This document shows, piece by piece, positions 1,368 through 19,589 of a stretch of 47,829 nt of DNA (the stretch's first letter is position 1; the number at the start of each line of letters is the position of its first letter). Source of the stretch: Deinococcales bacterium (GTDB lineage Bacteria > Deinococcota > Deinococci > Deinococcales > JAAFIG01). Location of the stretch: contig JAAFIG010000036.1 of NCBI GenBank assembly GCA_013298595.1, positions 1 to 47,829 on the forward strand, read 5' to 3'. Position numbers and translations under genes: made by a program. Under the pieces are notes generated by a model. That model saw nothing but the letters and a program-made list of their open reading frames with translations, was not told where the DNA came from and did no database searches.

Positions 1368-2789
1368 ATGAAACCATTTTGGGGAACGATATTGTTTGCA
1401 GCAGTTGGTTTACTAGGGTTTGAGGCTCGAGCACAAAGTGCCTATCCACCATCGAATATTATGAAAGCGGGTAGCCAAATCACACTCGAGTTACGGCAAA
1501 CGTGGACAAGTACCATTAAAGGTAAAGATTCTGATGGCGACTGGACAGGCGATGCCCAAGGTGCAAACGGTACTAAAGCAACTCTTTTTTCGTTTTCACA
1601 AAGTAATGGTTCTTTTGTTTGGCAAGTCTCTTTTCAAGGCGGTAGTGAGTACTGCTTTTTAAATAACTCGAGCAGTGTGACCAGTAATAATGCCAGTGGT
1701 GCTATGTATCAAGGTATACGTTTTAGTAAAACAGGCAATGCAGAAGCTGTTTCTGATAATACTGCTTGCCGAGTGACTTTGAATAATGGTGCTTCACAAC
1801 CGCCTGCACCGCCGCAACCACCTGCGCCACCGCAACCACCAGCACCACCCAGTGGTTTAACCGTTTCCTGGCCGCCAACATTTTCGCTTGGACAAAGTTG
1901 GCGTGTCGAAATTTCAGGTGCAAGTGCTGTCAATGTGGATTTAACCGAAAATGATCGTTTTGGTTCACCAAGTGGTAAGAATGGTGCTCGAGTGGTGAGT
2001 TTGTATTACTCGAGATCACAAGAAACAGCGGTTGTCGAAATTGTTGATGGTCAAGCGACACTGGGTTGTAAGTTCAAAGGTGCTCAGAGTGTTAGTGGTG
2101 CAAGTTTACAAAATGGCACAGTCGTTTCGCGTCCCAATCCGCAATCGCCTTTTCAGAATCAAAACGGTACATGCCGTATCACCTTAACAGCGGATCGTAA
2201 TGCCCAAACTACAACGCAGCAGCCCGTTGTACCAGGGGGCAATACCAATCAACCACCTGCTACGAATCAACCGCCAGCTTTGCCAGGAACAAATCAACCA
2301 CCAGCATTACCAGGTGGCACCAACCAGCCACCAGCTTTGCCAGGGGGTACAAACCAACCACCTGCCTTACCAAGCCAACAAGGAACCCCACCAAACACCA
2401 GTGTCTGGCCCGTCAAACTCGAGATTGGTCAGAGTTGGAAAGCTGATATTCAAACACTTGGTTCGTGGAATGTGACTTTCAAAGTGCTTGACCGCGATGG
2501 CGACCCGAGCGGTGACGCTATACCAAATGGTGCTTTCCCAGCACTTAGCTCGGTGTTTTATTACGCTAAACAAGATAACGATGTCAGGCTCGAGCTATTT
2601 AATAATTCAATCAGTTATATCTGTATTTTTGAACGCAACGAAATTAATGGTTTAACCTTCAACGGTTGGCGTTACGAAGTGACCCCTGACAAGAAATTAC
2701 GCAAAACCAATCAAACCTGCACCATGCAATATTTAGGGCGAGTTAATCTCAGTGCAATTTTTGCACCACTGCTGAATTATGTGCAGTAA
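1368..2789 (+). CDS. Secreted protein with three homologous two-cysteine domains and Pro-rich linkers
   Basis: 473 residues with a signal peptide (about residues 1-23, ending FEARAQS) and three related domains at about 31-140, 165-270 and 345-455. Each domain opens with a G.(S)W-type strand, has D-G-D-x-SG or DSDGDW-like loops, and carries one cysteine in a central strand and one near its end (C-R-I/V-T-L or CTMQYL), suggesting a disulfide in each. The domains are joined by QPPAPP x3 (143-161) and by NQPPALPGGT repeats (about 290-340), typical of flexible extracellular linkers. The Shine-Dalgarno site AAAGGAG lies 9 nt before the ATG. The gene sits 21 nt upstream of the clostripain-like protease and probably shares its transcript. 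I recognise no named family; a binding or scaffold role outside the cell is inference. Confidence 0.8.
   Translation: MKPFWGTILFAAVGLLGFEARAQSAYPPSNIMKAGSQITLELRQTWTSTIKGKDSDGDWTGDAQGANGTKATLFSFSQSNGSFVWQVSFQGGSEYCFLNNSSSVTSNNASGAMYQGIRFSKTGNAEAVSDNTACRVTLNNGASQPPAPPQPPAPPQPPAPPSGLTVSWPPTFSLGQSWRVEISGASAVNVDLTENDRFGSPSGKNGARVVSLYYSRSQETAVVEIVDGQATLGCKFKGAQSVSGASLQNGTVVSRPNPQSPFQNQNGTCRITLTADRNAQTTTQQPVVPGGNTNQPPATNQPPALPGTNQPPALPGGTNQPPALPGGTNQPPALPSQQGTPPNTSVWPVKLEIGQSWKADIQTLGSWNVTFKVLDRDGDPSGDAIPNGAFPALSSVFYYAKQDNDVRLELFNNSISYICIFERNEINGLTFNGWRYEVTPDKKLRKTNQTCTMQYLGRVNLSAIFAPLLNYVQ
1797..1850 (+). repeat. QPPAPP x3 linker-coding repeat
   Basis: Three tandem 18-bp units encoding Gln-Pro-Pro-Ala-Pro-Pro between domains 1 and 2 of the secreted protein. 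Third-position differences between units show the repeat is not a fresh duplication. Confidence 0.85.
2241..2375 (+). repeat. NQPPALPGGT-type linker-coding repeat
   Basis: Four to five imperfect units of about 30 bp encoding Asn-Gln-Pro-Pro-Ala-Leu-Pro-Gly-Gly-Thr between domains 2 and 3. Copy number is likely to vary between strains. Confidence 0.85.
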
Positions 2790-2810
2790 ATCACTCGAGA
2801 AAGGGTATGT

Positions 2811-4781
2811 ATGAAACGAATTCTGCCATTACTGGCAATGCTACTCTCGAGTTTTGCTTTAGCAAACCCGATGCAAAACATTACACATTTATTGCAACCA
2901 GTTGCACCTATCTCGTTAGCAGCTCAAGCACAAGTAGGGCAAGCGTGGACGATCCTGGTGTACTTACATGCCGATCATAATCTGTGGCGTTCAGCACTGA
3001 CAGATTTACTCGAGATGCAGCGTGTTGGCTCAAGTAACAATGTGCGTTTTGTGGTGCAAATAGATGCCCAATCGCCAAAGAGCCGTTATGCAGAAAAACA
3101 ATATCCAAGTTTTGATGGGGCTGTGCGTGGTTTGGTAACAAAAGCCGATGCCACAGATCGCAATGCAGCCATTGCCCAACTCAGCGATGTTGAACGCATT
3201 GCCGAACCCAATAGCGATGACCCTCAAGTGCTTTCCGATTTTATTGCTTGGGGAGTTCGGCGTTACCCAGCCCAGCGTTATGGTCTAATTCTTTGGGATC
3301 ATGGTGGACAATGGGATGGTGGCTTTGGTTTTGACGAGACAACAGTAATCACCACCAGAAAATCTTCGTTTATGCAATCATGGCAGGTTCGCCAAGGTAT
3401 GCAGGCAGGTATGGCACAAGTTGGTTTACAAAAATTTGATTTCTTAGCCCTCGATACTTGTTTGATGGGTGGTTTAGAACTTTTGTTTGAATATGCAGAC
3501 CTGACCAAGTATTACATTGCCGACCCAGAAATAGATTATGGAGCAGGTTGGGATTACACTGCTTCTTTTGGTTTGTTGCGCGATAACCCAAGTATCAGTG
3601 CTAGAGATTTTGCAATTCAAGAAGTCAATCATTGGGATGCCCATCATCAACGCAGTGCCTCGGATCGTTCTGATCGTGCCCATACCGCTTATGATGTGCA
3701 ACAACTAACCAGTTTACGCAATGCGGTCAATACATTTGTGCAAACAGCTTCGCAAAGTGCAGATCGGGCAGCATTACTCAGTGCTCGTTCCAAAGTTGTC
3801 GAATACCAATTCGACAGCGAAAGCCCCAACGACCCGTTGCCTTATATAGACATTGGGCATTACGGGCAATTAGTAGCCCAACTAACTCGAGATAATGCAC
3901 TTGCCCAAGCAGGGAACACTCTCGCAAATGCTGTGCGTCAAGTTGTGTTAGCTAAATCCTTAGGCTCGAGTAAATTGGCTGCCCTTGGGTTAAGTGTTTG
4001 GTTACCGAACAGCCCAAACGATAAACCCGATACTGCTACTTTAGCCAATTACAACACACAGTTACAATTAGCCAAAACAGTGCAGTGGAATCAATTTATT
4101 AACTTGTGGTACGGCAATGTCACTACCACAGTGCAACCTGTGGATGTGCGAGTCACCCAAACAATCAATTTGCTCGAGCCAACAGACCGAGAACCAGCCG
4201 TGATCGGTTTTAGTGTTTCAGGCAATGCTAATTTGATTTATGGCGAACTTGGCGAAGTTGGTGAACGCAATAGCTTTAAGGTGTATGGGCAACTCTATTT
4301 ACAACCAGGAGGCGCTAACCAATACGAGTACAACTGGGATGGTCGTTGGTACGAAATTCAGGGTGCTAATAACAGCAGCGATTTTTTTAATGGCTTCTTT
4401 CAACGTCCCAACGACAGCACCATGTATGCCAATGCCAGTTACACCCCTGTTGGACAAAGCCAAGGGTACGCTGTGATTGTGATTGCAGATTTAACCACCA
4501 GTAAAATTATTTCGGTGCTGGATAACTCGAGTATTGCTCCTCGAGAAATTACTTTGCAACCAGGTGGGGTGCTGCGGTTTCAACTACTACAAAAAGACCA
4601 ATTAACTGATGAAACTACACTGGTGCCAACAGGTCGAGTAGTGACTATTCCCAGTAATGGCATCGCAGGGATGCAACTACAACGCAACCGAATGCCACTG
4701 GGCGAATACATCCTGATTTTTGGTGCTCGAGACCAAGCTGGTAATATCCGCACTGGTTTTGCACCTGTACAAATTCGTTAA
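2811..4781 (+). CDS. Secreted clostripain-family (C11) cysteine peptidase
   Basis: 656 residues. A signal peptide (about 1-18, ending FALANP) is followed by a C11 clostripain catalytic domain at about 45-410. Visible catalytic elements are the WDHGG motif with His164 and DTCLMGG with Cys217, plus the family N-terminal strand WTILVYLHADHN. The remaining C-terminal 240 residues are beta-rich and may be substrate-binding or autoprocessed. C11 peptidases cleave after basic residues and usually mature by internal cleavage; the site was not identified here. It lies 21 nt downstream of the three-domain secreted protein, so the two are probably co-expressed, and that partner could be a substrate, inhibitor or targeting factor. 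A strong hairpin follows the stop. Confidence 0.9.
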   Translation: MKRILPLLAMLLSSFALANPMQNITHLLQPVAPISLAAQAQVGQAWTILVYLHADHNLWRSALTDLLEMQRVGSSNNVRFVVQIDAQSPKSRYAEKQYPSFDGAVRGLVTKADATDRNAAIAQLSDVERIAEPNSDDPQVLSDFIAWGVRRYPAQRYGLILWDHGGQWDGGFGFDETTVITTRKSSFMQSWQVRQGMQAGMAQVGLQKFDFLALDTCLMGGLELLFEYADLTKYYIADPEIDYGAGWDYTASFGLLRDNPSISARDFAIQEVNHWDAHHQRSASDRSDRAHTAYDVQQLTSLRNAVNTFVQTASQSADRAALLSARSKVVEYQFDSESPNDPLPYIDIGHYGQLVAQLTRDNALAQAGNTLANAVRQVVLAKSLGSSKLAALGLSVWLPNSPNDKPDTATLANYNTQLQLAKTVQWNQFINLWYGNVTTTVQPVDVRVTQTINLLEPTDREPAVIGFSVSGNANLIYGELGEVGERNSFKVYGQLYLQPGGANQYEYNWDGRWYEIQGANNSSDFFNGFFQRPNDSTMYANASYTPVGQSQGYAVIVIADLTTSKIISVLDNSSIAPREITLQPGGVLRFQLLQKDQLTDETTLVPTGRVVTIPSNGIAGMQLQRNRMPLGEYILIFGARDQAGNIRTGFAPVQIR

Positions 4782-4795
4782 GCAGCAACATGATT

Positions 4796-4828
4796 AGCAG
4801 ATGCTCGAAATTCGAGCATCTGCTTTTA
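4796..4828 (+). terminator. Rho-independent terminator after clostripain gene
   Basis: Perfect 14-bp inverted repeat AGCAGATGCTCGAA / TTCGAGCATCTGCT followed by TTTTAT. The T-tract also forms part of the TATAAT box of the next gene, so terminator and promoter abut. Confidence 0.85.
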
Positions 4829-4838: not shown

Positions 4839-5891
4839 GTGAACACAGAATTTATCACTGAATTCCTCGAGATTTTCCACGACCCCGAATCGAGCCAAGA
4901 TTTTCTCGAGCAAGCTGCTAATCAGTTTTACCAAACTGCTAGTGCGACATCGTATATTGAAGGACAACAAGTACTTTCTAAAGTTGCACCGAGTATTGAA
5001 ACTTTATCAGACCCCGTCCGAGCCAGTTATGTAGCACTTTTATGTGGTGCCTTACTCGAGCAAGGATTTGACCCCGACCCTGTGATTAAACCATTACTCA
5101 GTCGGTTGCAAACAATGACTGCTGATGTGCAAACGTGGTTACAAATTTGTCTCGAGCACAACCCGAGCATCCGAGGCGAAGAAGGTATCGAATACGATTT
5201 ACTCGAGGAAACTGAAAGTAGTATGGCAGAAACGCAGCCTGCTTTAGCCGCGCAAAACACGGCTTTTGATACGTTGTGGCGACCAGCTGTCACACTGTGC
5301 TCGCTGAGTAAAGATGCCCGATTGACCGCACAACCATTACGTACACAACTCGAGTTATTGCAAGATTTTACTGTCGGCGGTGGGTGGCTCAGTAAAATCT
5401 TGGCTGTACTCGATGATGAACCAATACTGGTACTCGAGCCAAGTACTAAATTGGGTTTTGCAGCTCGGATCAGTGGCATCAGTGATAATTTTCAGTTACA
5501 CACGCTACTGATGGATATTTTCCCAAACCCAACAGGGCAGCCTCGAGTCACACAAAATGCAGCTGATACCGCTTGGGCACGAGGGGCACAAGCAGGGGAG
5601 GGGAGCGTACTTGGCTATTGGAATTTATACGATTGGCGGGCAGCCAGTGCAGTACAAGCCCAACAATTGGCAACCGAAATCAACCGAGATTACTGGGTTT
5701 GGGGTGAAGGTATCCCATCCGATATTCCTGTCCGTAACGGGTACCGAATCATTCTACTGGGCGAACCAGCCTATCAACGATCATGGGCTAACTCGAGAAT
5801 GTTTGGGCATTTAAGACCAGAATTTACCGACTTAACAGTGCTTAGTACCGAAGACGTGCAAGACTGGCTCGAGCAACTTTCTGCTGTCTAA
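4839..5891 (+). CDS. Hypothetical cytoplasmic protein, 350 aa
   Basis: I do not recognise this family. The protein is acidic, has no signal peptide or membrane segment, and is helical in its N-terminal half (about 1-115). The C-terminal part (about 140-350) is richer in Trp and mixed alpha/beta, with YWVWGEGIPSD and a closing WANSRMFGHLRPEFTDLTVL. CTCGAG is dense (for example 4866, 4905, 5055), as in old resident genes of the window. The start is GTG with TATAAT 6 nt upstream and no Shine-Dalgarno site. It is monocistronic, bounded by a terminator upstream and an inverted-repeat element downstream. Confidence 0.75.
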   Translation: MNTEFITEFLEIFHDPESSQDFLEQAANQFYQTASATSYIEGQQVLSKVAPSIETLSDPVRASYVALLCGALLEQGFDPDPVIKPLLSRLQTMTADVQTWLQICLEHNPSIRGEEGIEYDLLEETESSMAETQPALAAQNTAFDTLWRPAVTLCSLSKDARLTAQPLRTQLELLQDFTVGGGWLSKILAVLDDEPILVLEPSTKLGFAARISGISDNFQLHTLLMDIFPNPTGQPRVTQNAADTAWARGAQAGEGSVLGYWNLYDWRAASAVQAQQLATEINRDYWVWGEGIPSDIPVRNGYRIILLGEPAYQRSWANSRMFGHLRPEFTDLTVLSTEDVQDWLEQLSAV

Positions 5892-15655: not shown

Positions 15656-16921
15656 ATGAGGCAATATCGTTTTGTGTTTGGCTTACTTGGTGTAGGTCTT
15701 CTAGCAGGGTGTAATCTATTAACTGCAGCCCCGCAGGTCAGTATTACCAATCCTGGAACAATTACTAACTCAGGGCTAACAGTGAAAGTAGCAGCCTCGA
15801 GTACCACAGGTATTGATGCTGTTGAAGTGATGCTCAATGGTACATCACTTGGTCGCAAAACCAGTCCACCGTATGAATGGACGACAACAGTGAACAGGGC
15901 AAAAAATGGAGCAAATATTTTAACCGCATATGCGACAAATCCAAGTGGTGGTTTTACATATGCAAACCCAGAAACTTTTACGGTTAATATTGCCCCTGAT
16001 ATAAGCTTAACCTCGAGCAGCACAAGTATCTCTAGTAATGCACCAATCAGCTTGACAGCTGCTCCTATGGACTCAAGTGCTGATTTGAGCAAAGTTGAGT
16101 TTTACCAAGGTTCAACCCTAATTGGTACCGATACTTCCGCACCATTTAACCAAGCAGTGACTTTTACACAAGCAGTACAAAATGGTTTATACAATTATGC
16201 AGCTAAGGCTTTTGATGCAACAGGTAAAACTGCTTCATCAAATCTTGTTGCGATTACTGTCAATGTTCCAGATACAACTATGCCTGCTGTTGCATTAACC
16301 GCACAAGGCTCCGTGACGGGAATTGCCCTAAATGCAGGCGCTACTGATGATGTTGGTATCACAAAAGTTGAATTTTATAGTGGAACCACGTTACTTAACA
16401 CAGACTCAGTAGCACCTTTTACGTACAATCTTAGTTTAGTGGATGCTGGGAAACTATTCCCAAATTATACTGCTAAAGCCTATGATGCTACAGGCAACAA
16501 CAGCACTTCAAATGCTATTCAAGATGTTTGGGAGTCCAATAATACTGTTGCAACCGCTCTGATGCTTGATGCTATGCCAGTGCGAACCCAAGCGGGTGTC
16601 ACTTTGGGTGGTTCACTTGATGGAACAACCCCTGATGTTGATTATTATGCCGTCAATATGACTTTTAGTCAGGTGTTAAAAGTTCGTACTTACTCGAGTG
16701 GTGGCGCTGATACTGTGGTGCGAATTTACGATGCTGCTGGTGCTCAACTTGCCTTTAATGATGCAGCTGGAGATTACGATAATGCCGATTCAGCGGTGAA
16801 CTGGCGAGCTAATGATAATGGGGTTTATTACATTGCTGTTTCAGCATATACCGATGGTGTAACACCAGCTATGCAGGATTCAAGTAAGCAATATCGTGTG
16901 ACCGTGAAGGTGGGTGATTAA
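15656..16921 (+). CDS. Lipoprotein with Ig-like domains and C-terminal PPC domain
   Basis: 421 residues. A lipobox (LLAGC, Cys19) marks a surface lipoprotein. Three beta-sandwich Ig-like repeats (about 25-110, 115-205, 206-290) share the pattern D..KVEFYQG..LI.TD..APF and Y.AKA.DATG. The last 120 residues are a bacterial pre-peptidase C-terminal (PPC) domain, from DVWESNNT through DYYAVNM, VVRIYDAAG and GVYYIAVSAYTDG, known to bind matrix or starch/chitin-like polymers. AGAGGAGG is the ribosome-binding site. The stop codon abuts the subtilase start, so the two are an operon; it may tether or guide the protease. CTCGAG is sparse (three copies). Confidence 0.85.
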   Translation: MRQYRFVFGLLGVGLLAGCNLLTAAPQVSITNPGTITNSGLTVKVAASSTTGIDAVEVMLNGTSLGRKTSPPYEWTTTVNRAKNGANILTAYATNPSGGFTYANPETFTVNIAPDISLTSSSTSISSNAPISLTAAPMDSSADLSKVEFYQGSTLIGTDTSAPFNQAVTFTQAVQNGLYNYAAKAFDATGKTASSNLVAITVNVPDTTMPAVALTAQGSVTGIALNAGATDDVGITKVEFYSGTTLLNTDSVAPFTYNLSLVDAGKLFPNYTAKAYDATGNNSTSNAIQDVWESNNTVATALMLDAMPVRTQAGVTLGGSLDGTTPDVDYYAVNMTFSQVLKVRTYSSGGADTVVRIYDAAGAQLAFNDAAGDYDNADSAVNWRANDNGVYYIAVSAYTDGVTPAMQDSSKQYRVTVKVGD

Positions 16922-16922
16922 A

Positions 16923-19589
16923 ATGCGTAAAATAATTTCTCTTTTAGGAGTTTTAACAGCAGGTATACTTGCGGGTTGTAATCTCAATGGAAATGTTCCC
17001 CAAAGTATTAAACAAAGTGCTGCTGGTCTCGAGATCAGCGCCGAACAAAGTGCTACGCGTTGGTTCATTGGCGTTGAAGGCAAAGCAGCCGTGCAAGGTT
17101 TATCAGTTCAGGCTGTACAAGCGCAACAAGCGCAGGTTTTAAGTGTCATGCGTGCTAGTGGGATTCAATTCCAAGTTCAACGCCAGTTCTCGAGGCTCTG
17201 GAGTGGTTATGTGGTTCAAGCTTCGGCAGCCGAAGCTCAAAAATTGCGTTTTGTAGCAGGTGTGACTTCAGTTGATCCTGTCTTGAACATTCCAATGCCG
17301 GAAGAAAAACGTGGTGACATTCCTGATTTGGTCACCAGTACTAATCAAATTCAAGCTCCTCTGGCACGTAATGTCTACAGTGTCAATGGTACTGGAATCA
17401 AAGTTGGTATTATTGATACGGGTATTGATGTACAGCATCCTGCCTTTGCTGGACGAATTGCGGGTGGTTATGACTTTGTTGGTGATGATTATGATTTTGG
17501 TAAAACACCTGTGCCAGATAACGACCCAGATGATTGTGGTGGGCATGGTTCGCACGTTGCAGGAATTGTTGGTGCAAATGATACTGCCACACCATTTCAA
17601 GGTGTAGCTCCCAATGTCAGTTTATATGCTTATCGGGTTTTTGGATGCACTGGTTCTACTGCTTCTGATATTCCAATTGCAGCAATGGAAAAAGCTGTGG
17701 CTGATGGAATGGATATTGTTAATCTGAGCTTAGGCAGTAACTTTGGCGTAACTGCAGGTCCAAGCGCAATTGCTGTGGATCGCTTATCATTGGCGGGTAT
17801 TACTGTTGTCATGTCGGCAGGTAACTCTGGTGGCGCTGGTTTGTATGCACACGGTTCGCCGGGTTCTTCTGAATCGGCTATTTCAGTGGGTAATGTCGAA
17901 AACACCAGTGTTTTACAAAGTGCTTTTAGTATTTCGAGAACAGGTTTTACTACCACGGCGTTTGGGTATGGCGGTATGGCAGCGAGTCCGTTGGTGCCTA
18001 CTTCTGGTGCATTTCCAATTGCACGTTTAGGTGCGCCGCTTTCGCCAGAAGCCCAAGCTTGCACAACAGGGGCAACGCCACGACCAATCGCAGCCAATTC
18101 TTTAGCTGGTAAAATTGTGCTGATTCAACGTGGTAGTTGTTCTTTTTACGAAAAAGTTAAAAATGCTGAGGTTGGTGCTGCTGTCGCTGTTGTCATTTAC
18201 AACAATCAAGCTGGTTTTATCAGTGCAACTGTGGCTCCAACACCACCTGCTCTTCCTACCACAATTCCATCTGTAACCATGTTACAAGCTGATGGAATAG
18301 CTTTGGATACTGTTATCAACAATGCAAGTCCTACCACGCTGACTTGGACAGCCAGTAAAACTTCAGTTCTTAATCCAGCTGGTGGTTTTATGGATACAAG
18401 TAGCTCATTTGGTCCAACCGATGACCTGAACCTTAAACCAGATGTATCCGCTCCAGGCGGCAATATTTACTCAACTTATCCGCTCGAGAAAGGTGGTTAT
18501 GCCACCCTGAGTGGAACAAGCATGGCTTCACCACATGTGGCTGGTGCAGTTGCTTTGTTAATGCAGGCTCATCCAGAACTAAAAGGGAATCCTCGAGCTA
18601 TCCGTGCTATTTTCCAAAATACTTCTACCCCTGTTCCTTTGCGTGCAGCGCCAAGTTTCCTTGAACATGTGCAACGCCAAGGTTCTGGTTTAATCAATGT
18701 GCTGAGTGCTTTATCCACAAAGCAAGGCATTAGCCCTTCGCGTTTACCACTTGGCGAAATGGAGTCGGGTAGCAAAACTGTTACTTTAACTGTTAAAAAC
18801 GATAGCAGTACACCAATTACGTATGCGATCAGTCATGCAGCCGCCGCCAGTATCACAGGTGATACATTACCTGCATCAGCAACAGCTACTGTAACACCAG
18901 GAGCTTCTGCTGCTGCTTCTGTGGTTGCTTTCAGTGCCTCGAGTCTAGTCGTTGCTGCCAACTCGAGTGCTACATTTGATGTGACAATCACACCACCCAC
19001 GGCTTTAGCTTTACATGGTTATTTTGGTGGGTATGTGGTTTTAACGCCAAATGTGGGTTTGCCATTGCGTGTACCTTATACTGGCTATAAAGGCGATTAC
19101 CAATTTGTTAAAGCCATCCCAATTTGTGCTAGACAATTTGAATCTGGGGTATCCCCAACGGCTTGCACATCTGCAAACTTACCTGGTGCATTTTTAACTG
19201 AGGCATCTTTGTTAGGTGCGTATACAGGTGATGGTGCAGTCTTTGACATGAGTGATCGTGATAATACGCCAGCGATGGCATTTACTCGAGTGCGCCCAAT
19301 GCGTCGTGTAACTGTTGAAGTGGTTAATGCAGATGGTAGCGCTGTCGATCCTGTGTTGAATAAAGTTCTTATTAGCGATAACTTTGGACGCTCAACTCAC
19401 CAATTCTCATTCAATGTTGTTCCACTAACGGATGGTAAAGTATTCGCTGAAAAAGGCGCAGGTAGTCTCACTTTACCCAACGGTATTTATCGCTTTAAGT
19501 TACGTGGCTTAAAAGCCTTAGGTGACGAGAATAATCTTGCTCATTGGGAAACCATTACCTCAGCTTCATTTGAAATTGCTCGCCCATGA
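16923..19589 (+). CDS. Subtilisin-like (S8) serine protease lipoprotein with PA insert
   Basis: 888 residues from the ATG at 16923, with AAGGTGG 9 nt upstream; a GTG at 16914 is too close to that site. A lipobox (GILAGC) precedes an I9-like propeptide (about 50-120) and the S8 domain with Asp165 (VGIIDTGID), His208 (GGHGSHVAGI) and Ser533 (GTSMASPHVAGA). Residues about 360-450 are an inserted protease-associated domain (LAGKIVLIQRGSCSFYEKV). The 300-residue C-terminus is beta-rich, with an Fn3-like domain as in Vpr/C5a-peptidase relatives. It is probably surface-anchored and degrades proteins for nutrition. CTCGAG density is about 2.6 per kb, less than half that of neighbours. Confidence 0.93.
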   Translation: MRKIISLLGVLTAGILAGCNLNGNVPQSIKQSAAGLEISAEQSATRWFIGVEGKAAVQGLSVQAVQAQQAQVLSVMRASGIQFQVQRQFSRLWSGYVVQASAAEAQKLRFVAGVTSVDPVLNIPMPEEKRGDIPDLVTSTNQIQAPLARNVYSVNGTGIKVGIIDTGIDVQHPAFAGRIAGGYDFVGDDYDFGKTPVPDNDPDDCGGHGSHVAGIVGANDTATPFQGVAPNVSLYAYRVFGCTGSTASDIPIAAMEKAVADGMDIVNLSLGSNFGVTAGPSAIAVDRLSLAGITVVMSAGNSGGAGLYAHGSPGSSESAISVGNVENTSVLQSAFSISRTGFTTTAFGYGGMAASPLVPTSGAFPIARLGAPLSPEAQACTTGATPRPIAANSLAGKIVLIQRGSCSFYEKVKNAEVGAAVAVVIYNNQAGFISATVAPTPPALPTTIPSVTMLQADGIALDTVINNASPTTLTWTASKTSVLNPAGGFMDTSSSFGPTDDLNLKPDVSAPGGNIYSTYPLEKGGYATLSGTSMASPHVAGAVALLMQAHPELKGNPRAIRAIFQNTSTPVPLRAAPSFLEHVQRQGSGLINVLSALSTKQGISPSRLPLGEMESGSKTVTLTVKNDSSTPITYAISHAAAASITGDTLPASATATVTPGASAAASVVAFSASSLVVAANSSATFDVTITPPTALALHGYFGGYVVLTPNVGLPLRVPYTGYKGDYQFVKAIPICARQFESGVSPTACTSANLPGAFLTEASLLGAYTGDGAVFDMSDRDNTPAMAFTRVRPMRRVTVEVVNADGSAVDPVLNKVLISDNFGRSTHQFSFNVVPLTDGKVFAEKGAGSLTLPNGIYRFKLRGLKALGDENNLAHWETITSASFEIARP

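Follow-up and report, generated by a model that had tools for sequence, protein, structure and literature searches.

Our analysis of a 47,829-nucleotide stretch of Deinococcales DNA (hereafter the window, meaning the whole stretch at its full length) defined a secreted domain family that is new to Pfam and NCBIfam, with a likely fold and with ties, within a single bacterial order, to two protease families that are unrelated to each other. The domain occurs three times in P0001, which is encoded upstream of P0002, a clostripain-family (C11) cysteine protease and, judging from its recurrence in another genus, the association of the two is real within one C11 clade. The family is unnamed, its class of fold is familiar, and its role would be of a familiar kind: we tentatively propose, with slightly more doubt than belief, that P0001 is a non-catalytic partner of the secreted C11 protease, a PPC-like module that binds substrate or surface.

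Organization of the P0001-P0002 locus

According to the ORF coordinates, P0001 lies upstream of P0002 on the same (+) strand, with a gap of 21 bp between the two genes (Table 1). Promoter and terminator scans, which returned about as many sites in shuffled as in real sequence, a caution that extends to the hairpin following P0002, detected neither a promoter-like site nor, on the + strand, a terminator-like one within this gap. The aminotransferase gene upstream of P0001 is divergently oriented, which together with the hairpin suggests that P0001 and P0002 are likely to form one two-gene transcription unit. The earlier note had described the pair as co-transcribed; the single-strand layout agrees with this description, and we infer co-transcription itself from the short spacing, the gap free of such sites and the hairpin at 4796-4824.

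The gene at 4839-5891, whose 350 amino acid product matched neither Pfam nor NCBIfam, was weighed as a possible third operon member and dropped, since it is located beyond the terminator-like hairpin and no homologue was found in three family relatives (G001-G003). On the aminotransferase flank of the same-genus relative G001 (L118:2036-4048), the place that P0001 and P0002 have in the window is taken by genes for an AAA ATPase and, next in order, an HNH endonuclease, an arrangement that recalls an ATPase-nuclease defence pair.

Table 1. Features of the P0001-P0002 locus (positions are those of the window).
Feature	Position	Strand	Basis
P0001 gene, 473 amino acid secreted three-domain protein	1368..2789	+	ORF list
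P0001 putative Sec signal peptide, about residues 1-22 (cleavage between FEARA and QS)	1368..1433	+	read by eye from sequence
P0001 domain copy 1, residues 33-143; Cys96/Cys134; DSDGD hairpin	1464..1796	+	HMM E 3.6e-27 (profile includes the three copies); barrel model pLDDT 86
P0001 Pro-rich linker 1, (QPPAPP)n, 0 Arg/Lys	1797..1859	+	tandem-repeat and residue counts
P0001 domain copy 2, residues 165-279; Cys234/Cys269; without the DxDGD motif	1860..2204	+	HMM E 5.7e-35 (same profile, includes the copies); sister of d4 in the G002 homologue, 98/97
P0001 Pro-rich linker 2, (TNQPPALPGG)n, 0 Arg/Lys	2205..2396	+	tandem-repeat and residue counts
P0001 domain copy 3, residues 344-461; Cys419/Cys451; DRDGD hairpin	2397..2750	+	HMM E 3e-35 (same profile, includes the copies); barrel model pLDDT 88.8, pTM 0.81
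P0002 gene, 656 amino acid clostripain-family (C11) cysteine protease	2811..4781	+	PF03415 E 7.5e-34
P0002 putative Sec signal peptide, about residues 1-18 (cleavage between SFALA and NP)	2811..2864	+	read by eye from sequence
P0002 C11 catalytic region, residues 50-433; His164 3300-3302, S1 Asp215 3453-3455, Cys217 3459-3461	2958..4109	+	PF03415, alignment
P0002 C-terminal extension, residues 434-656, common to all seven phylum C11 proteins; no Pfam match	4110..4778	+	
Terminator-like hairpin, 13-bp stem and T-rich tail, probably closing the two-gene unit	4796..4824	+	hairpin scan (site numbers about the same in shuffles)

P0002 is a predicted Arg/Lys-specific C11 protease

The identification of the neighbouring protease as clostripain-like, already made in the earlier note, was borne out by a match to PF03415 over the entire profile (positions 1-359 of 359; 118.3 bits against a curated cut-off of 25.8); the NCBIfam clostripain equivalog matched below its cut-off, and 9cip, 6n9j and 3uws are sequence relatives in the PDB. 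H164 lies within WDHGGQW and C217 within DTCLMGG, where D215 precedes it by two residues, and all seven homologues have these residues without exception. The C11 enzymes characterised so far cleave on the C-terminal side of Arg/Lys, guided by an Asp located two positions ahead of the catalytic Cys (PMC4850288, PMC10315481); the roles of the catalytic and S1 residues were taken from PMC4850288. P0002 is predicted to share this specificity, with R183/K184, located between the His and the Cys, as candidate processing residues. Like clostripain, PmC11 and globupain, it has the His/Cys dyad, the S1 Asp and a full-length PF03415 match, and as read from these residues it is an ordinary member of the family apart from the C-terminal extension of ~220 amino acids, a feature of the C11 proteins of this phylum. 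No barrel-domain partner of a C11 protease is described in the C11 literature cited here.

P0001 carries three copies of an unnamed two-cysteine domain

P0001 consists of three homologous copies of a domain of ~115 amino acids, separated by two Pro-rich linkers built of tandem repeats (an 18-bp unit repeated 2.9 times at 1797-1849 and a 30-bp unit repeated 2.8 times at 2289-2372). All three were also recovered by a profile from which the window copies had been left out (198.8 bits for the whole protein; E 1.4e-22 for the best copy), so the repeat is not due to chance. With a putative Sec-type signal peptide at its N-terminus, the secreted, triplicated architecture with tandem Pro-rich linkers that the earlier note had read from the sequence was thus recovered. 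Both P0001 and P0002 would be exported by Sec, and no sorting signal, lipobox or anchor was seen in P0001.

Searches with P0001, combined with reading of the regions, identified five further domain proteins in the window's own genome, giving 15 copies in six proteins. Adding relatives produced an alignment (A2) of 48 copies, each with exactly two Cys in two fixed columns and no other, in agreement with the single pair per domain noted earlier; the two may form a disulphide within each domain. The next most conserved positions are Pro8 and Gly42 (44/48 each), Trp17 (43/48) and Gly93 (40/48). In 23 of the 48 copies the β2-β3 hairpin carries DxDGD or DxDND, a loop that may hold Ca2+; where Ca2+ loops of the Dx[DN]xDG type have Gly, at the sixth position, these copies mostly have Pro or Trp.

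The domain had no significant match in Pfam (E up to 1 for the 15 copies and up to 0.1 for the 48), NCBIfam or the PDB sequences, where the profile returned weak matches to the lipocalin nitrophorin-4 (E 0.14-0.3), nor any match among viral contigs and plasmids. A search of genome contigs with a narrower query, whose reach outside the phylum is below profile sensitivity, found a same-genus MAG (JAAFJQ01) alone. These profile searches are in line with the original remark that the domain has no named family.

The domain is predicted to fold as a calycin-like barrel

AlphaFold2 was run with 12 sequences, comprising the three window copies and nine from JAAFJQ01. Copy 3 was modelled as eight antiparallel β-strands, with Cys78/Cys110 of the model in strands 6 (residues 75-80) and 8 (residues 103-117), and copy 1 as an all-β barrel with nine strand segments. 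Avidins headed the Foldseek matches of copy 3, with probabilities of 0.97-0.99, an E of about 0.1 and a TM of about 0.5, and VIA-align gave a Z of 8.8 over 96 residues (rmsd 3.8) against bradavidin2, tied with designed barrels; copy 1 gave the same picture, with avidins frequent among the matches, and a BFVD search with the domain gave no useful match. The domain is therefore likely, on these models, to be a calycin-like meander β-barrel resembling avidins and other calycins, a likeness that would concern a shared fold and says nothing about function or common descent. The predicted eight-stranded antiparallel barrel is common to avidins and lipocalins, whereas no avidin model appeared among the Pfam matches of the 48 copies (E up to 0.1), the fold-match E is about 0.1, and barrels of the P0001 type stand in tandem on Pro-rich strings.

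Since avidins and lipocalins are the nearest folds, the barrels might bind a small or hydrophobic ligand as lipocalin/avidin-like cargo, with the link to proteolysis being secondary. In favour of this, a number of the domain proteins are encoded away from any protease, and a two-domain C1-type protein adjoins a peroxiredoxin gene in two genera. Against it, conservation between copies is largely confined to the two Cys, a single Trp, some Gly/Pro positions and the hairpin loop, with no conserved ligand-binding set, and we regard this explanation as improbable.

Inhibition is a serious rival, given that calycin barrels beside proteases can be inhibitors (PMC9486555): P0001 could be a C11 inhibitor or zymogen-control protein, with a β-barrel that keeps the active site closed until the enzyme has been exported. 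The calycin-like eight-stranded barrel, its single Cys pair and the gene's position beside a protease gene all fit, as I38 (Inh/AprI) and staphostatin barrels block their proteases (PMC9486555). The I38/Inh family (AprI and the U-Omp19 barrel) likewise combines a calycin-type eight-stranded barrel with one disulphide, export and a link to proteases, but its members are single-domain proteins with an N-terminal inhibitory stretch and a disulphide from β2 to the loop after β3 (PMC9486555), whereas the Cys here are modelled in β6 and β8. No copy matched the Inh profile or any other Pfam inhibitor family (15 copies, E up to 1; 48 copies, E up to 0.1); the absence of I38 inhibitors among the structural matches listed proves nothing. 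Moreover, two to five tandem copies and, in paralogues, a permanent C-terminal fusion in cis to catalytically intact trypsins would be odd for an inhibitor, and other paralogues have no adjacent protease. Taken together, we consider an inhibitory role unlikely.

The pair recurs in a second genus

In another genus (G002), a 687 amino acid protein with five domains precedes a C11 gene whose start overlaps its stop codon. Of the window's genes, only P0001 (39% identity) and P0002 (59%) have homologues within the 15-kb region around this pair, and the counterpart of the aminotransferase gene that lies upstream of P0001 maps to a different G002 contig. The partnered C11 proteins of both genomes are sisters (100/100 in the tree, about 60% identity), and in the domain tree copy 3 of P0001 pairs with domain 5 of the G002 protein (100/100), just as copy 2 does with domain 4. 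Copy 1 is closest to domain 1 of a paralogue in the window's own genome (97/85), a sign of domain shuffling.

Two unrelated exported proteins could share one promoter by chance, and with two independent instances of the pair, and most C11 and domain genes unpartnered, this possibility has to be weighed. We regard it as very improbable: gene order and strand are the same in two genera with unrelated flanks, and the same-genus relative G001 (a 94% complete draft) has neither a detectable member of the partnered C11 clade nor a detectable orthologue of copies 2 and 3. By a rough estimate, chance adjacency would be about 7e-4 and 2e-4 per genome. The unrelated flanks, sister C11 proteins and sister domains thus argue for an association within one C11 clade, absent from the other five C11 genes of the phylum.

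Distribution and other contexts of the domain

Profile searches of 60 relatives, and then of 111 genomes of the phylum, found the domain in 17 of the 111: the family to which the window belongs contributes all four of its members, and another family in the order contributes 13 genomes. C11 proteases were found in five (the same four and one more), with seven loci in total, and a partner is present at two of the seven. A general coupling of domain and C11 was therefore rejected (17 against five of 111 genomes), and a conserved association, which the earlier note had named as a check, stands for one clade, recurring in another genus with different flanks, but not for C11 proteases at large. A second C11 copy (C3), with a domain gene two genes away, was not retained as a further pairing, as no comparable layout was seen around the C11 gene of the same-genus relative. 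A 718 amino acid protein with Big_2, fn3 and RCC1 repeats (L015:3223-5379) is encoded divergently from this second C11 gene, with a two-domain barrel protein just beyond.

Domain proteins carry two to five copies, either as solo proteins or as the C-terminal tail of Trypsin_2 proteases, the latter being the commonest context besides the C11 pairing. Trypsin_2 proteases with two or three C-terminal tandem domains and intact catalytic motifs are encoded in G000, G001 and genomes of the second family (f5). Four of the six domain proteins in the window's genome adjoin no protease. The two-domain C1-type paralogue beside a peroxiredoxin gene (L010:6994-7974, L064:5420-6418) constitutes a second conserved neighbourhood, and a four-domain paralogue has, in two genomes, a conserved upstream gene for a protein of ~205 amino acids with a single TM-like segment (L009:8537-9157, L057:3409-4017).

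Proposed role of P0001 as an in-trans accessory module

Because the same domain forms the C-terminal tail of trypsin-like proteases, an accessory binding module is the economical reading of P0001. Once Sec had exported both proteins, P0001 would present its three β-barrels, small and of calycin type, on flexible Pro-rich strings that resist proteolysis; these would hold, through the barrels, a protein substrate, a polymer or the cell surface, concentrating or localising the C11 protease, which, so placed, would cut after Arg/Lys. The operon would then be an in-trans version of the arrangement fused in cis in the trypsin-like paralogues, working like PPC domains or carbohydrate-binding modules. 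Gene layout, repeat homology, the predicted fold, the C11 catalytic and S1 residues, the trypsin fusions and the pair in the second genus are the computed basis of this proposal, from which we infer binding by the barrels and cooperation with the protease. It should be noted that most domain-bearing genomes have no C11 and that five of seven C11 genes have no partner, which counts against a partner role, and P0001 could act on something unrelated to proteolysis.

The closest parallel is the PPC domain (PF04151), a C-terminal accessory domain of secreted M4, M9, M28 and S8 proteases. In protease E495, PPC domains arranged in tandem at the C-terminus were shown to bind the enzyme's protein substrates and to increase its activity towards them (PMC3327674). 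PPC is likewise a small β domain, often in tandem, as are the two or three C-terminal copies after Trypsin_2, for which we propose the same role. In contrast, PF04151 matched no copy of the present domain (15- and 48-copy searches), which is a predicted calycin-like barrel with an invariant Cys pair and at the P0001 locus is placed on a separate protein.

The linkers bear on how the two proteins might interact. Their 85 residues include no Arg/Lys, whereas 31 of the 344 domain residues are basic in this sense (Fisher p 0.0016), and the two long linkers of the G002 partner protein likewise have none. As Arg/Lys are the P1 residues used by characterised C11 enzymes, cleavage of the linkers by the protease, which the earlier note had proposed to test, is unlikely; they look protease-resistant, although a shortage of basic residues in Pro-rich linkers also has causes of a general kind.

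Alternatively, P0001 may be a surface or matrix precursor matured by C11 cutting at Arg/Lys within or beside the domains, as might be expected of a secreted, repeat-rich and Pro-rich protein in an operon with a predicted Arg/Lys-specific protease and with a copy number that differs between the window (three) and G002 (five). The composition of the linkers, which would be the obvious cut sites, counts against the simplest form of this explanation, as do the missing sorting signal, lipobox or anchor and the presence of the same domain on trypsins and alone, and we hold it to be unlikely. Substrate, inhibitor and adhesin-like scaffold, the roles originally put forward, are each retained as options, with the evidence leaning towards a binding or targeting module.

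If the binding role is correct, a calycin barrel joins the substrate-binding modules of secreted proteases, and the pair offers a small, testable model of an in-trans partner steering a clostripain-type enzyme. More broadly, and more doubtfully, the order could possess an exoprotease toolkit specific to its lineage, built around a single undescribed calycin-barrel domain whose Cys pair is invariant and which works with trypsin-like proteases in cis and with the caspase-like C11 in trans, binding or regulating them. In P0001, a clan CD peptidase would then have a calycin partner, a combination not described in the literature cited.

Elsewhere in the window, the gene for a lipoprotein-like protein (15656-16921), which has three Big_7 Ig domains and a PPC domain scoring just below threshold, overlaps the start of an S8 subtilase gene (16914-19589). 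Here too the gene of a non-catalytic β-domain protein immediately precedes that of a secreted protease, which speaks in favour of the accessory reading.

CTCGAG is hyper-iterated in the window and its relatives

The palindrome CTCGAG occurs 293 times in the window (e.g., at 1426, 1485 and 1667) against 4.6 expected; of the 277 that fall within coding sequence, 153 are in frame. The window's 4.58 Mb genome contains 27,159 copies (about 5,900 per Mb) compared with 15 of the reversed word GAGCTC. The word resembles HIP1 in being such a palindrome but is a different word, and it is unmentioned in a survey of cyanobacterial HIPs (PMC4390886). Similar numbers were found in the three family relatives (26.6-28.2 thousand CTCGAG against 4-9 GAGCTC), and the word is also abundant in one genus of another family (21,868 against 25 in G012 and 14,690 against 2 in G016).
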